Shown: one piece after another, positions 5,736-33,774 of the stretch
Layout of the letters: every line of letters starts with the position of its first letter
Position numbering within the stretch: position 1 is the first letter of the stretch
Origin: Spirochaetota bacterium
GTDB lineage: Bacteria; Spirochaetota; Spirochaetia; ARS1246
Direction of reading: 5' to 3'
Assembly: GCA_024275515.1 (NCBI GenBank)
Contig: JAJRYZ010000124.1
Span: forward strand, 1-34,508
DNA: 34,508 bases
Translations under genes and position numbers: made by a program
The notes under the pieces: model-generated
What the model saw: the letters and a program-made list of their open reading frames with translations, nothing else
Database searches by the model: none
Told to the model about the DNA's origin: nothing

Positions 5736-8700
5736 CGCGCTCGATCTGCAGGAAACTTTCGTCGTTCGCGAGCGCGCGCACGACGGTCGCGTTGCTTTTG
5801 AGATGTCGAATCCCCTCGACGGCCGCGCGCGCGGCCGATGTCGTCGTCGTGTAGGGAATACGTCTTCGGACCGCCTCGATCCGAATCATCTCATCGCCCT
5901 GCTGCGAGAATCTTCCAAGCGGCGTGTTGATGAGCAGGTGTATCTTCCCCGCGCGCATCTGATCGATAACGTTCGGGTGTCCCTCGTGTATTTTCAGCAC
6001 AACTTCCGGGAAAAGGCCGTGCTCGAAGAGAAACTGCGCCGTCCCGCGAGTCGCGCATATCGCGAACCCGAGCGCCTCGAGATCCTGAACCATCGGCAGG
6101 ATCGTCTCCTTGTCCTCCCTGTGAACCGAGACGAACACCTTACCTTCGGTCGGCAGAACAGTTCCCGCCGCCGCCTCGGCCTTGGCATACGCCTCGCCGA
6201 AAGTGGCGCCGGTGCCGATAACTTCGCCGGTCGATTTCATTTCCGGACCGAGAAGCGGATCGATCACATGGAAGCGTTCGAAACTGAAAACCGCCTCCTT
6301 TACCGCCCATCCGGTTCGACACTTCCCCTGCCCGATTCCGTTGCTCGTTAACCCCTGCGCTTCCAGATCTTCGCCCAGCCATATCCGCACGACGGCGTCG
6401 ACCAGATTCACCCCCGACGCCTTCGACAGGTACGGCACGGTGCGCGAAGCACGTGGATTGACTTCAAGCACGTACAGCTCGCCGGCCTTGACGGCGAACT
6501 GAATATTGAGAAAACCGCGAACACGTATCTCCCCGGCGATCCGAGCGGTGGCCCGGATCATTTCGTCGAGCAGATGAGGATCGGATTTGTACGCGGGGAA
6601 AACGCAGGCCGAGTCTCCGGAGTGAATCCCCGCGGCTTCGATATGCTGCATGATTCCGGCAACGTAGACGTTCTCGCCGTCGGACAACGCATCGAGGTCG
6701 TACTCGAAGGCGTCTTCCAGAAACTGATCCACCAAAACCGGGCGCTCCCGCGACATCCGGATGCCCTTGCCGAGAAAGGTAGTGAGTTCCTCCGGATTGA
6801 AAGCGATGAACATGCTCCGTCCGCCGAGTACAAAGCTGGGTCTCAGCAACACCGGGTAGCCGATTTCCCGCGAGAACTCTTCGACCTCCTCCGGGCTCGA
6901 CGCCATGCGATTCATCGGCTGTCTCAGGCCGACTTTGCGGACGAGATCCGAAAAAAGACCGCGGTCCTCCGCGTCGAGAATGTTCTTCACTTCGGTTCCC
7001 ACCACACGCGCCCCGTGCTCGGTCAAGGTCTCGGCCATGTTCAACGGCGTCTGTCCGCCAAGCTGAACTACCACGTCCCACACGTCTTCCTTCCGCATGA
7101 CCGCCAGAACATCCTCGGGCGTAAGCGGCTCGATATAGAGACGGTCCGATATATTGAAATCGGTCGACACGGTTTCGGGATTTGAGTTGATAATAATCGG
7201 GTGCACACCGTGTCGACGATACGACAGCGAGGCGAGAGTACAGCAGGTGTCGAACTCGAGTCCTTGACCGATCCGGTTCGGCCCACTCGCCAGGATGATC
7301 ACCGCAGGGGGCTCGATTCGCCCGCCTTCGTCTATTTCTCCGAACGTCGAGTAGAAATAGGGCGTGTCTGCGGTAAACTCGCCGGCGCACGTGTCGACGA
7401 AATGGTAGGCCGCGTGGATCTCATTCTCGTCTCTGAGGCCCCGTACGTCGAGCAGCGACGTCTTTCCCAAACGGGCGATTCTGCGGTCCGAAAGGCCGCA
7501 TCGCTTCGCCTCCAACAGCAACCGAGGCGTGAGCGCGCCCGAAGAGATCCGTTGCTCGAGGCGGGTCTGAACGAGCAGCTGATGCAGGAACCACGGGTCA
7601 TATCCGGTTTTTTCACGCAGAGAGTCGAGCGCACGTTCGCCTTCGCGCGAGAGCACCGTGTAGATCGCGAAGAGCCTCATCGGGTGCAGCGTATCGAGCA
7701 TTCGGTCAAGCCCGTCGTAACCGATTTCGAGCTCGGTTACGCCTTCGTACCCGATTTCCACCGCCCGAACGGCCTTATTGAGCGCCTCGATGAAAGTCCG
7801 TCCGAGCGCCAGGGATTCTCCCACGGATTTCATCTGAGTACCGAGCTCTTCGTACGCCGCAGGAAACTTCTCCAGCTCGAACCGGGGAACTTTCACCGCG
7901 CAGTAGTCGAGCGCCGGTTCGAAACACGAAACCGTTTTCCCGGTGATATCGTTGATGATTTCGTCCAGGGTAAAGCCCACGGCGAGCCTCGCCGCACACC
8001 GGGCGATGGGAAATCCGGTCGCCTTGCTCGCGAGTGCGGAGGAGCGCGATACGCGTGGATTCATTTCGATGATGATCATCCGGCCGGACTGCGGATCAAC
8101 GGCGAACTGCACGTTGGACCCTCCGCACTCGACACCGATCGCCCGCAGGACCTCGATCGACGCGCTTCTCATAACCTGGTATTCCCGATCACTCAGGGTC
8201 TGAATCGGCGCGACGGTAATGCTGTCGCCGGTGTGGACCCCCATTGGATCGACGTTCTCGATTGAGCAGATGATAACGGCGTTATCCGCGCTGTCCCGCA
8301 TCACCTCCATCTCGAACTCTTTCCATCCGACGAGCGACTCTTCGATCAACGCCTCGTGAACCGGGCTTTCATCCAGCGCTCGTTCCAGAAGGCTGCGAAA
8401 CTCACCGGCGGTCACGGCGATGCTTCCGCCTTGCCCCCCCAACGTGTAACTCGGTCGGATAACAACGGGCAACCCCACTTCGTCGATAAAGCCGAGCGCC
8501 GCTTCCACCGATTTGGTGGTAATCGAACGAGCCACGTCGAGACCGATCGATCGAGCCACCTCTTTGAACTTTCCCCTGTCCTCGGCCCGCTCTATCGCCT
8601 CGATGCTCGCGCCTATCACCTCGATGCCGTACCGATCCAAAACGCCCTCATGGGCGAGCAGCATCGAGAGGTTCAGGCCGGTCTGCCCCCCCATCGTCGG

Positions 8701-10392: not shown

Positions 10393-10491
10393 TAATGGAA
10401 CGATTCTCGACACGGTCCGCCTCGCCGACGGACGCGCGGGCGGTCGTCGGCGGCTCTGCCCGAAGAACGCAACCGCAAAAGGCGCACGATT

Positions 10492-12060: not shown

Positions 12061-12962
12061 CTGTCGCTCCGATAGTACTTCTGAAGCGCAGGATACTCGC
12101 TCAGCGGCCTGAAAGAAAAGCCCTGCTCGATTGAGCGGGAGTACTCGCGGCGAAGAACCTCGACCAACGTGTCGCTATGAACATGCCCGATCAACACCGC
12201 CGAACTTTCCCGTCTCGCCCGGTCCAGCCCTTCCGCAAACGCCGATCTTACGACATCGTATTCGGCTTCGTTGTCCAGAAACGGTCCGGTACGTTCGGCA
12301 AACGCCACCTCGTAGACCTCCGCGACCATGCCCGCGACCGACGAATTCGTGGTAACGCTGTCGAGAAAGAACATTCCGCGATTTGAAAGGTAATCCATCA
12401 CGTAGCTCATCGTCTCCGCGTCGGCGGTCACTTTTGAACCCATGTGATTGTTGATTCCGCGAATGCTTTCCAGTCCCGCCAGATTTTCATCAAGGATCGC
12501 ATCGACCTCTTCTCGGCTCATCCCGGCGTACAGCGCACCGACTCCCGGATCGGAGGATCCGACCGGCTCCATCGGCTGATGCAGTATCACCACCTGCCCC
12601 GCGGCGCGGATCCGTTCGACCGCCTCTCTGGTGTAGCGACGACGCGGCATCACGGCGAAAGTGAGAGCAAAGGGAAAATCGAGAAACCGTTCCAACTGTT
12701 CCATGCTGTTGCCCACGTCGTCGATGACGAGATAGAGATCGCCGCCGCGCGGTTCTTCGGGAGCCTCCGGTCGTGGTTCAGGCTTCGGAGCAGCACCGTC
12801 GACTTCGGCCGGCGCGACCGCCGTTGGTGTCGCCGGCCGCCGCGGCGCCTGAAAGAGTAGAAGCACCAGCACGAGACATGTGGCAACGACGGCGAGTAGC
12901 ACGATCGCCGTTCGCACCTTTCGCCGCTGACGCCCGAGGGAGGTTGTTCTTTTGTATGCCAC
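12057..12962 (-). CDS. Divergent polysaccharide deacetylase (YibQ/DUF610 family)
   Basis: This 301-residue protein has a basic N-terminus, one membrane anchor (about residues 18-40, AIVLLAVVATCLVLVLLLF), and a Pro/Ala/Glu-rich linker to about 72. The C-terminal domain is of the divergent polysaccharide deacetylase family. Motifs are DLYLVIDDVGNS (about 76-87), MPRRRYTREA, LHQPMEP (about 129-135), the conserved NNHMGSKVT, FLDSVTTNSS and IGHVHSDT. The domain probably faces the periplasm. The biochemical role of the family is not settled, and a cell-envelope function is inferred. The start codon is GTG. It begins 31 bases after the sigma-factor stop, across a 16-base palindrome, and overlaps tsaD by four bases. 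Confidence 0.85.
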   Translation of the reverse strand: MAYKRTTSLGRQRRKVRTAIVLLAVVATCLVLVLLLFQAPRRPATPTAVAPAEVDGAAPKPEPRPEAPEEPRGGDLYLVIDDVGNSMEQLERFLDFPFALTFAVMPRRRYTREAVERIRAAGQVVILHQPMEPVGSSDPGVGALYAGMSREEVDAILDENLAGLESIRGINNHMGSKVTADAETMSYVMDYLSNRGMFFLDSVTTNSSVAGMVAEVYEVAFAERTGPFLDNEAEYDVVRSAFAEGLDRARRESSAVLIGHVHSDTLVEVLRREYSRSIEQGFSFRPLSEYPALQKYYRSDR

Positions 12963-19103: not shown

Positions 19104-19985
19104 TTATTCGTAGCACCTACCGACGTAGAACAACGCATCGGGTAAGTCCGGGTGTTTGGGAAATTTCTGAATCATCGCGGTGAAATGTCTCACACACCCG
19201 TCGTAGTCTTCCAGAGAAAAGAGGCAGCGACCGATCTCGAAAACTGATTTGACCGCGTATTCTTGATCCCCCCCGGAATTAACGATACGCTTGAACTCCG
19301 CGAGAGCTTCCTCGTATTTCTGTTGGCTGAAAAGACTTACGGCGTTGTAGTATTCCTTCGCCGCGTCGGACATCGATGCGCCGCTTTGGCTTGGAGACGC
19401 GCTCGTAGTCCCGCTCGACGCCGCGGCGGGCCGCGACCCTCCGCCGCCCTGAACGTATTTTTCGCACAGCTGTATCGAATCGTTCGCATCTGCGGCGAAT
19501 TTGCCCGAGGGATAGTAGGTAAGATACCTGCGAAAGGCGTACAGCGCCTGGCGATACTTTTTGGTGTTGAGGTAGTATTGCCCGATATTGTAGAGGCCTT
19601 CCTCGGGGCTGACCTGCTCTCCCGTGGCGAGTAGATTCCGAACTTGCTTGTGAATCCTTCTCAGTTGCGTAGAAAAAACCTTGAGCATTTTCACGATAAT
19701 GCGTGTGTTCTTCATCGCGATCTGCTCGAACTCGGGCACGGTGAAAGTGATCATCGAAGAGTCCTGCACGACAACGGCCGTCTCTTCGCGCGGGTATTTT
19801 CCGAGCGCCGATTTCACACCAAAAAACTCGCCGGTCTTGATAACGTCTTGCATCTCCTGGCCGGTCTCGATGTCGTTGTACTTCAAAACCACGCGTCCGC
19901 TCTTGAGTATGTATACGCGCTCGTTGAGATCTCCGCGGAAATAAACGATCGAGTTGGCCTTGTACTGAGCGGCTTTTGGCGACAT
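19104..19985 (-). CDS. Cyclic-nucleotide-binding protein with TPR repeats, truncated by in-frame TAA
   Basis: This 293-residue protein has an N-terminal cNMP-binding domain (about residues 10-120: ANSIVYFRGDLNERVYILKSG and GEFFGVKSALG). The canonical PRSA-type arginine cassette is replaced by PREETAVV, so nucleotide binding may be altered. TPR units follow (EEGLYNIGQYYLNTKKYRQAL near 150 and a later set from about 210), separated by a Gly/Ser/Ala-rich linker (QGGGGSRPAAASSG). The C-terminus stops in the middle of a TPR unit at a TAA; the frame continues for 35 more codons. The ribosome binding site is GGAAGGAG. The combination with a second cNMP-binding gene downstream resembles a conserved spirochaete pair. 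Its role is probably signalling or scaffolding; the target is unknown. Confidence 0.8.
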   Translation of the reverse strand: MSPKAAQYKANSIVYFRGDLNERVYILKSGRVVLKYNDIETGQEMQDVIKTGEFFGVKSALGKYPREETAVVVQDSSMITFTVPEFEQIAMKNTRIIVKMLKVFSTQLRRIHKQVRNLLATGEQVSPEEGLYNIGQYYLNTKKYRQALYAFRRYLTYYPSGKFAADANDSIQLCEKYVQGGGGSRPAAASSGTTSASPSQSGASMSDAAKEYYNAVSLFSQQKYEEALAEFKRIVNSGGDQEYAVKSVFEIGRCLFSLEDYDGCVRHFTAMIQKFPKHPDLPDALFYVGRCYE

Positions 19986-30985: not shown

Positions 30986-31960
30986 ATGATGTTTGATGCA
31001 ATGATTGCACCGGTCAGACAGCATCCGTCGGTCGATATCATCGGCACCGTCGACTCGTCCATGCACGGAGCCCGTATCGCTCTGGGAATATGTGGAAGCG
31101 TCGCGTGCGTGCGTGCGGTCGACATTGCGCGAACGTTGATGCGACGCGGAGCGGAGGTCGTGCCGATCATGACGAAGGCGGCGACCGAATTGATGCACCC
31201 ACGCCTTCTTCACTGGGCAACGGGAGTTTCACCTGTGTGCGAACTCACAGGCGCCGTCGAGCACGTCGCCGTCGCCGGAAACGTCGACGACCGGGCCGAC
31301 GTTGTGCTCATCGCTCCCGCAACGGCCAACACGATAGGCAAAATCGCATCCGGGATCGACGACACGCCCGTAACGACAGTCGTTACCACCGCACTGGGGC
31401 AGCGAATTCCGGTCGTCATCGTTCCCGCGATGCACGAGCCGATGTACCACCATCCGATAGTCCGCGACAACATGCGGCGCCTGCGCGAAATAGGAGTCGA
31501 CTTCGTGACGCCGACGGTCGAGGAAGGCAAAGCGAAGATGGCGCCGATCGAGGAGATCGTGGCGGCCGTGCATGCCCGACTTCTGTATCGCGACCGGGAG
31601 CCGCCGCTTTCGGGTGTAAATGTTTTGATTACCGCGGGCCGAACCGTCGAATACATCGATCCGATTCGGTGCATCACCAACAACAGTAGCGGCAAGATGG
31701 GTATGGCCGTCGCCTCGGCTGCGCTCGCCGCCGGCGCCGCCGTGACGATCGTCTACGGCAAGGGCACGGCGCCGCCGCCCGGTCGCGCAAAAACGATCTA
31801 TGTCGAGACGGCCGAAGAGATGAAGCGGGCCGTGTACGATCGTCTCGCCGAAGAACGCGTGGATGTGTGCATTGCAGCCGCGGCCGTCGGAGACTGGACA
31901 CCCAAATCCAAAGCACGGCGAAAAATCAGCACCGACAAAAACGGCTCGCTTACGATCTAA
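30986..31960 (+). CDS. coaBC: CoaBC (PPCDC/PPCS), N-terminal part, interrupted by in-frame TAA
   Basis: CoaBC makes 4'-phosphopantetheine from phosphopantothenate and cysteine for coenzyme A. This part holds the CoaC flavoprotein decarboxylase (ALGICGSVA, APATANTIGKIASGI, VPAMHEPMY) and the start of CoaB (VLITAGRTVEYIDPIRCITNNSSGKMG, near residue 210; AAAAVGDWTP near 295). The N-terminal HPSVDIIGT extension looks like the archaeal-type enzyme (from memory). The frame stops at TAA (31958-31960) inside CoaB, yet continues in frame for 110 codons of good CoaB. The start is uncertain; ATG 30986, ATG 30989 and ATG 31001 are possible, and the track's TTG 30965 looks like a promoter box. CoA synthesis is normally essential, so the break is notable. 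Confidence 0.85.
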   Translation: MMFDAMIAPVRQHPSVDIIGTVDSSMHGARIALGICGSVACVRAVDIARTLMRRGAEVVPIMTKAATELMHPRLLHWATGVSPVCELTGAVEHVAVAGNVDDRADVVLIAPATANTIGKIASGIDDTPVTTVVTTALGQRIPVVIVPAMHEPMYHHPIVRDNMRRLREIGVDFVTPTVEEGKAKMAPIEEIVAAVHARLLYRDREPPLSGVNVLITAGRTVEYIDPIRCITNNSSGKMGMAVASAALAAGAAVTIVYGKGTAPPPGRAKTIYVETAEEMKRAVYDRLAEERVDVCIAAAAVGDWTPKSKARRKISTDKNGSLTI

Positions 31961-32290
31961 CTCGTCGCGACGCCGAAAATCATCGACGGAATAAAACGTT
32001 TGTCCCCGGGCACTTTTCTGGTCGCCTTTCGCGCTCTCAGCGGGCTGTCCGAGGAGCAACTGATCGACAATGCCTTTCGCCGACTCGAAAAGGCCGGCGC
32101 CGACCTGATCGCCGTCAACGATACGGAGAGGCCGGGCGCCGGATTCGAAGGCGAAACCAACGAGCTCTATCTGATCGACGCCGCACGCAACGTAGAACAT
32201 ATTCCTCTCATGAAAAAGACCGAGGCCGGCGCTTTGCTGATCGACCGCGTGGCGCACTCTATCGCCTCGAATAACGGAGGGAACAGGTGA
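31961..32290 (+). pseudogene. coaBC: CoaB C-terminal remainder, in frame after the TAA
   Basis: The frame continues from the TAA as LVATPKIIDGIKR, FLVAFRALSG and AGADLIAVNDTERPGAGFEGETNELYLI, and ends GGNR at TGA. These are the expected C-terminal CoaB motifs (the LVxTPDI, GFxAET and AND segments of the family). The residue at the stop is usually Glu, Lys or Gln, each one base away from TAA. The fragment overlaps the next gene (GTGA), as an intact CoaBC would. A TTG at 32000 is the only early restart and would miss part of the domain. It may be a natural nonsense mutation, a sequence error or readthrough. Confidence 0.75.
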
Positions 32291-33774
32291 AGGACGACAC
32301 GCAGATCAAGTCCGCGCCCAAGGTGGAGCGCAAGGTCATGTCCGCTTTGAAGAACAGCGACCGCGCAGCCACCGTGGCCGACGTCGTCGCGGCGACGTCG
32401 CTTCCTATTCGAGAGGTGGAATCGACGCTCAAGCGAATGCTCGACGAGTACCGCGGCGCCTTGCGAGTTACCGAGACCGGAGAACTCCTCTACTATTTCC
32501 CGCAAGGCTTTCGAAGCGCGTCCACCGGTTTCTTGCCGCGACTCAAGCGCGCCGCCCGCCGCGCCGGCGGCGCCGTGCTTAGGACGGCCCGTTTCCTGTT
32601 CAAAATCTGGATTGTCGTAATGCTGGTGGGATATTTCGCTCTCTTCCTTGCTCTCCTCGTCGCCGCAGTGGTCGCGTCGACCGCAGCCTCGGTCGCCGGC
32701 CGCGGAAACGACTCCCGCTCCCGAGGACGTGGGGGTGGGTTCGGCTTGTTCTATCTCAGCACACGGCTGCTTCAGACTTTTTTCTTCCTGTGGGTGTACA
32801 GCAGCCCCGGCAAGACGCGGAAGCGTCGCGGGCGCCCGTTGCACCAATCGGTCTTCGCGTACGTGTTCGGCGAGGGCGATCCCAACAGGGAGTGGGAAGA
32901 GAACGCACGAAAGGCAATCATCCGCCATATTCAGCGTCACCGTGGAATCGTTACCACGTACGAGGTGGCGTCGATGACCGGGTTGCCGCTCGCCGAGAGT
33001 CAGGCGATGATTCACCGGATGCTGCGCGAATACGACGGAGACCCGGGAGTGACGGACGACGGCACGCTCTACTACGCGTTTCCCGGCCTCATGGCGCGGA
33101 GCGAAACGGAAATCGATCGAGCCCGATCGCACAACGGCGCGCCGAAAAAGCAACTGATGCCGTTCAACCGGAATCCGAAAAAGCTGAACCGTTGGATAGG
33201 ATTCTTCAACGGTTTCAATCTGATTTTCGGCGCGTATTTCCTGACGTTTGCGAACGTGGCCATTCCCCGCGTCGGCGAGCCGGCCGGCATCGGGAGCTTC
33301 GCCTTGATCGTCCGGCAACTCTTAAGTTTTATCCCCAATCCGGTCCTATTCATGTTCTACGGGTTGGGCGTGGTACCCATCGTGTTTTCGGTGTTGTTTT
33401 TTTGTACGACCGCGACGCGCCGGTACCGGGAGCGCGCGAGAAATCGCGCCGCCCGCAACGACAACTTCCGGCGCCGTGTTTTCGCCTCGGTCGTCGATCG
33501 CCCGGAACGTCTGCGGCTCGACTCTATCGTCCCGACCAACGACGATGAGCGCGCCGACGAACCGGACAGAATCAGGGACGAAGTAGTCGTCGAGCTGCAG
33601 ACGTTGGGAGATGTCACCATTTCCGAGGAGCCGAACGGCGCGCTACTCTACGATTTCACCGAGCTCGGTAGGTCTCAGCGGGACATCGCCTCGTTTCGTG
33701 AGTCGATCAACCCACGCGATTTTGATATCGGCTCGGTGATATACGACTCGGGTTCCGACGCGTCGACATCCTAA
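32287..33774 (+). CDS. Membrane protein with repeated winged-helix-like units
   Basis: This 495-residue protein starts with GTG, overlapping the coaBC stop (GTGA). It contains at least two copies of a unit of about 60 residues. The first is about 10-75 (RKVMSALKN...LPIREVESTLKRMLDEY...ELLYYFPQGF) and the second about 210-280 (KAIIRHIQRHRGIVTTYEVASMTGLPLAESQAMIHRML...TLYYAFPGL). A weaker third lies near the C-terminus (VELQTLGDVTISEEPNGALLYDF). The units look like winged helices. Hydrophobic membrane segments lie between them at about 103-135, 155-172, 300-325 and 345-380. I do not recognise the protein beyond this; similar hypothetical proteins may occur in other spirochaetes. Its function is unknown. 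Confidence 0.75.
   Translation: MKDDTQIKSAPKVERKVMSALKNSDRAATVADVVAATSLPIREVESTLKRMLDEYRGALRVTETGELLYYFPQGFRSASTGFLPRLKRAARRAGGAVLRTARFLFKIWIVVMLVGYFALFLALLVAAVVASTAASVAGRGNDSRSRGRGGGFGLFYLSTRLLQTFFFLWVYSSPGKTRKRRGRPLHQSVFAYVFGEGDPNREWEENARKAIIRHIQRHRGIVTTYEVASMTGLPLAESQAMIHRMLREYDGDPGVTDDGTLYYAFPGLMARSETEIDRARSHNGAPKKQLMPFNRNPKKLNRWIGFFNGFNLIFGAYFLTFANVAIPRVGEPAGIGSFALIVRQLLSFIPNPVLFMFYGLGVVPIVFSVLFFCTTATRRYRERARNRAARNDNFRRRVFASVVDRPERLRLDSIVPTNDDERADEPDRIRDEVVVELQTLGDVTISEEPNGALLYDFTELGRSQRDIASFRESINPRDFDIGSVIYDSGSDASTS

Follow-up and report, generated by a model that had tools for sequence, protein, structure and literature searches.

The window analysed here, a complete contig of 34,508 nucleotides (C72) of the draft genome of a Spirochaetota bacterium (4.2 Mb in 329 contigs; 94.84% complete, 6.51% contamination), carries a coaBC frame with an in-frame TAA in its CoaB domain, followed by a gene that overlaps it (Table 1). 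Translation of 30986-32290 gives 324 residues, the TAA, 109 further residues and a terminal TGA at 32288-32290. The original prediction had placed the TAA within CoaB, as the translation and the register of the PF04127 and TIGR00521 matches confirm, and had counted 110 in-frame CoaB codons up to the overlapping stop, which we find to be 109 codons plus the TGA itself.

Table 1. Features of the coaBC locus, other genes with internal stops in the same genome, and archaeal-type CoA genes of relatives. Positions are those of the window unless a locus (L number) is given.
Feature	Position	Strand	Remarks
coaBC reading frame	30986..32287	+	interrupted once; translation and domain matches
CoaC decarboxylase domain	about 31073-31576	+	inside the coaBC frame
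CoaB/DFP domain	about 31607-32176	+	inside the coaBC frame
In-frame TAA in CoaB domain	31958-31960	+	translation, alignment to relatives
coaBC 3′ part	31961..32287	+	109 in-frame CoaB codons, coding-like
First candidate restart codon (TTG) downstream of the TAA	32000..32002	+	39 bases downstream; no clear ribosome-binding site
Next gene	32287..33774	+	start GTG at 32287; 4-base overlap with coaBC stop; no Pfam match
Cyclic-nucleotide-binding/TPR gene, C-terminal TPR part	19104-19106	-	internal TAA
galM	L111:7404		internal TAA
pyrG	L112:10407		internal TAA
gltX	L136:10395 (contig 19)		internal TAA
DUF898 gene	L123:13933		internal TAA; match short or weak
mttB(-like)	L112:8013		internal TAG
ArsC-family gene	L236:8309		internal TAG; match short or weak
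pdhB	L221:11749		internal TGA
pstS	L235:9679		internal TGA
Band_7 gene	L153:2358		internal TGA
Archaeal-type CoA genes by archaeal-like coaBC	L003:194-1872; L025:2743-3444; L027:2732-4229; L028:546-1472; L031:2744-4021		class relatives

An otherwise intact CoaBC frame

The 5′ part of the frame encodes a complete CoaC domain and positions 1-110 of the DFP profile (PF04127), of which positions 118-186 match the 3′ part in register with the 5′ half. The same holds for a single family model spanning both halves: TIGR00521 matches with positions 3-294 before the TAA and 300-391 after it, and its score rises from 279 bits for the truncated protein to 340 bits for the read-through one (curated cut-off 219.7). 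The domain order is that of CoaBC, Flavoprotein (PF02441, CoaC) followed by DFP (PF04127, CoaB); the one departure is that the deposited sequence is not a single uninterrupted frame. The 109-residue piece matches the CoaB domain on its own (E = 4.5e-09) and the TAA is the single lesion in 1.3 kb, with no frameshift, so that the match beyond it is not a matter of chance. Nor has the coding signal faded in the 3′ half, where the codon-usage score is as good as before the TAA and GC3 is 0.725 (0.722 in the 5′ half).

At the position of the TAA the 14 closest relatives have E, D, T or K; all are open there, and none has a stop at the same place. None of the relatives returned belongs to the same genus. 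Ten relatives from the class with this type of CoaBC have it uninterrupted, at 49-58% identity, and the nearest matches outside the spirochaetes are archaeal. Conservation in at least 13 of these 14 relatives marks 106 columns, and of these the window's CoaBC, the TAA aside, deviates at four, in each case mildly. A second coaB elsewhere in the genome, one of the ways out that the original prediction had suggested, did not materialize: searches with the protein itself, PF04127 and TIGR00521 recovered no other CoaB, the remaining matches falling far below the cut-off.

In-frame stops elsewhere in the genome

We scanned stretches of the genome totalling 1.21 Mb, non-exhaustively, for stops with strongly coding flanks in the same frame on both sides, and tested the candidates against Pfam and, in alignments, against solved structures. 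This recovered in-frame stops within 11 conserved genes including coaBC, namely six TAA, two TAG and three TGA (Table 1). In most of them the match spans the stop; for gltX and pdhB, where the Pfam domain gives out near the stop, the structure alignment carries on through it. The TPR gene of the window, when read through its TAA, yields a frame that runs to within about 10 bases of the next gene. A URO-D-like gene (L112:12415) is likely to be interrupted as well, its Pfam match stopping short of spanning the stop. Several other candidates were dropped: the L25/pth junction (L156), the LemA gene (L105), L154 and L139 as gene boundaries or unproved, and an IS21-like gene (L215) for want of a Pfam match. 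At the first of these (L156:4982, minus strand), a ribosomal-protein-L25-like gene terminates at a TAG that lies directly 5′ of a pth-like frame with no ATG, GTG or TTG for 36 codons; either this frame begins at an atypical start codon or a further base error is present.

The interrupted gltX is the only copy in the genome above the family cut-off. A cell without glutamyl-tRNA synthetase is not viable; the stop in gltX can therefore not be a true null, and some at least of these stops have to be errors in the consensus, which is also the most economical interpretation of the set as a whole. In structure alignments, the residues at the places of the stops are D, R, Y and S in GltX, T or E in PyrG, and R in PdhB. 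This mixture does not bear out a suspicion that the lost residues are mostly Glu, as a single type of mutation would have it, and we accordingly claim no single mutation type.

The same scan of two relatives gave one candidate in 0.57 Mb (a response regulator in G011, with the stop in a linker) against about 9 per Mb here. The contrast of 11 with 1 has a P of about 0.065 (calculated by hand; 0.034 when two weaker cases are included) with bins unmatched for quality, and this makes the higher count here suggestive but not strong. The stops lean to TAA (6/11; P about 0.05, by hand). The base preceding the stop is C in 9 of 13 candidate internal stops (G000; P = 0.025 against third-position composition), and this may be a trace of the way in which the errors came about. 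Three interrupted genes (mttB-like at 8013, pyrG at 10407 and URO-D-like at 12415) lie on the 16.8 kb L112 (contig 87), possibly a contaminant or a contig of poorer quality.

Accounts of the internal TAA

On these sequence comparisons, the organism probably has an intact, ordinary bifunctional CoaBC, the TAA being a single wrong base in the draft consensus: a thinly covered or mixed-strain position would have been called wrongly, turning one sense codon into TAA. A sequence error was the case that the original prediction had set down as its own refutation; it is now the most likely one, given that comparable stops turn up in other parts of the assembly, among them one in the only full gltX, a gene that cannot be lost. 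The base error is further supported by the single copy of coaBC with its single lesion, by the occurrence of all three kinds of stop inside the 11 conserved genes in 1.21 Mb, and by the lack of recoding signals. Counting against it, the higher number of stops than in the two relatives is no more than suggestive, a plain error model does not predict the lean to TAA, and CoaBC may be dispensable here, given that PPS and two types of pantothenate kinase were not found. If the TAA is an error, draft metagenome genomes can mimic the loss of an essential enzyme where none has happened. The TAA resembles nonsense errors in draft metagenome assemblies, which likewise are isolated stops within conserved genes that are intact in other respects, essential ones included. 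A literature search for premature stops in metagenome genomes gave no match.

The main rival to the base error is a real and recent null, which we consider unlikely. Under it, phosphopantetheine would no longer be made de novo, a CoA precursor would be imported, and CoaB would be at the beginning of its decay while CoaD is kept. The genome has CoaD, and searches of it found neither PPS (PF02006, the archaeal-type phosphopantothenate synthetase), nor type III PanK (PF03309), nor type I PanK (TIGR00554), so the cell may salvage CoA precursors; at 94.84% completeness, however, missing genes may simply be unsampled. A family-mate (G001) lacks matches to both CoaB and PF03309, but is only 81% complete. 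Four members of the class whose genomes are at least 95% complete (G009, G014, G015 and G018) give no PF04127 match to CoaB, which is therefore not universal in the class. Type III PanK and CoaD are present in all four of these. A coaBC deletion of B. subtilis grows on pantethine via CoaA (PMC11487621); yet this known bypass requires a CoaA-type kinase, and the search for type I PanK found none here. The alternative source of phosphopantetheine raised by the original prediction keeps some plausibility, both from the near-complete members of the class in which PF04127 detects no CoaB and from the lack of enzymes upstream of CoaBC in this genome. At odds with a null are the solitary lesion, with conservation and coding signal intact beyond it, and the same kind of stop in the single-copy gltX.

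That the UAA is read through or recoded to give a full-length CoaBC is very improbable. Six of the 11 internal stops are UAA, including those of gltX, pyrG and coaBC, and would fit such decoding; however, ARAGORN and Rfam found no UAA-decoding tRNA among the 41 tRNAs of the 94.84% complete genome, the sequence 3′ of the TAA is no more stably folded than its shuffled versions (z = 0.74) and so offers no stimulatory RNA structure, no downstream base is common to the internal stops, and the relatives have no stop at this place. The readthrough put forward by the original prediction is thus left unsupported by tRNAs, RNA fold or relatives. Moreover, TAA terminates 70 of 408 long ORFs in a sample of the genome and is therefore a working stop codon here, which rules out a genome-wide reassignment of UAA. 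A variant in which low-level decoding of UAA as an amino acid takes place throughout the genome, such that gltX, pyrG and coaBC tolerate it while other genes still end at it, strikes us as more remote still. Were the TAA real, it would mark a spirochaete that lives on imported CoA precursors or one with tolerant decoding of UAA.

We give equally little credence to a split enzyme, in which the 5′ part would yield CoaC together with half of CoaB, the remainder being made from a restart: separate CoaC-like and CoaB-like genes do occur in some class members (e.g., G004, G006, G008 and G030), but their splits sit between the two domains rather than within CoaB, and a protein begun at the TTG, which has no clear ribosome-binding site, would be missing 13 residues at the start of the 3′ part. 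None of the restart codons downstream of the TAA comes with a convincing ribosome-binding site, and the restart option of the original prediction is poorly supported accordingly.

Archaeal-type CoA genes and known CoaBCs

The more durable result lies in the related spirochaetes, in which genes of the archaeal CoA route stand beside an archaeal-like CoaBC. PPS (PF02006, up to 233.7 bits) adjoins this type of CoaBC at L003, L025 and L027; PanB does so at L003, an MfnA-type decarboxylase at L031 (TIGR03812, 410 bits), and a pantoate-kinase-like GHMP protein at L027 and L028, for which the best NCBIfam models are pantoate kinases, with scores far below their cut-offs. Type III PanK was not found in at least four such genomes (G011, G012, G013 and G020). 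The paper that completed the archaeal pathway called PoK and PPS unique to archaea (PMC6650551). Judging by these gene neighborhoods and domain matches, what we see looks like an archaeal-type CoA route in spirochaetes, the genes of which were perhaps transferred. The genome of the window is different in this regard, with no PF02006 match in contrast to the PPS adjoining coaBC in relatives, and its coaBC lacks the PPS, PanB, PoK-like kinase or MfnA-type decarboxylase neighbors of several archaeal-like coaBC genes.

Set against the bifunctional CoaBC family (TIGR00521; structures 6tgv, 1u7u and 5int), the window's protein carries the two domains in the order of the family and in register with it, with a score above the curated cut-off, and its deposited gene differs by one in-frame TAA in the CoaB domain. 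Among the archaeal-like CoaBCs, it is about 49-58% identical to those of the spirochaete relatives (L002, L003, L025-L034) and about 45% identical to those of Hecatellales archaea (L004, L005). All of these are uninterrupted, unlike that of the window, and to both groups its likeness extends to the region around the stop.
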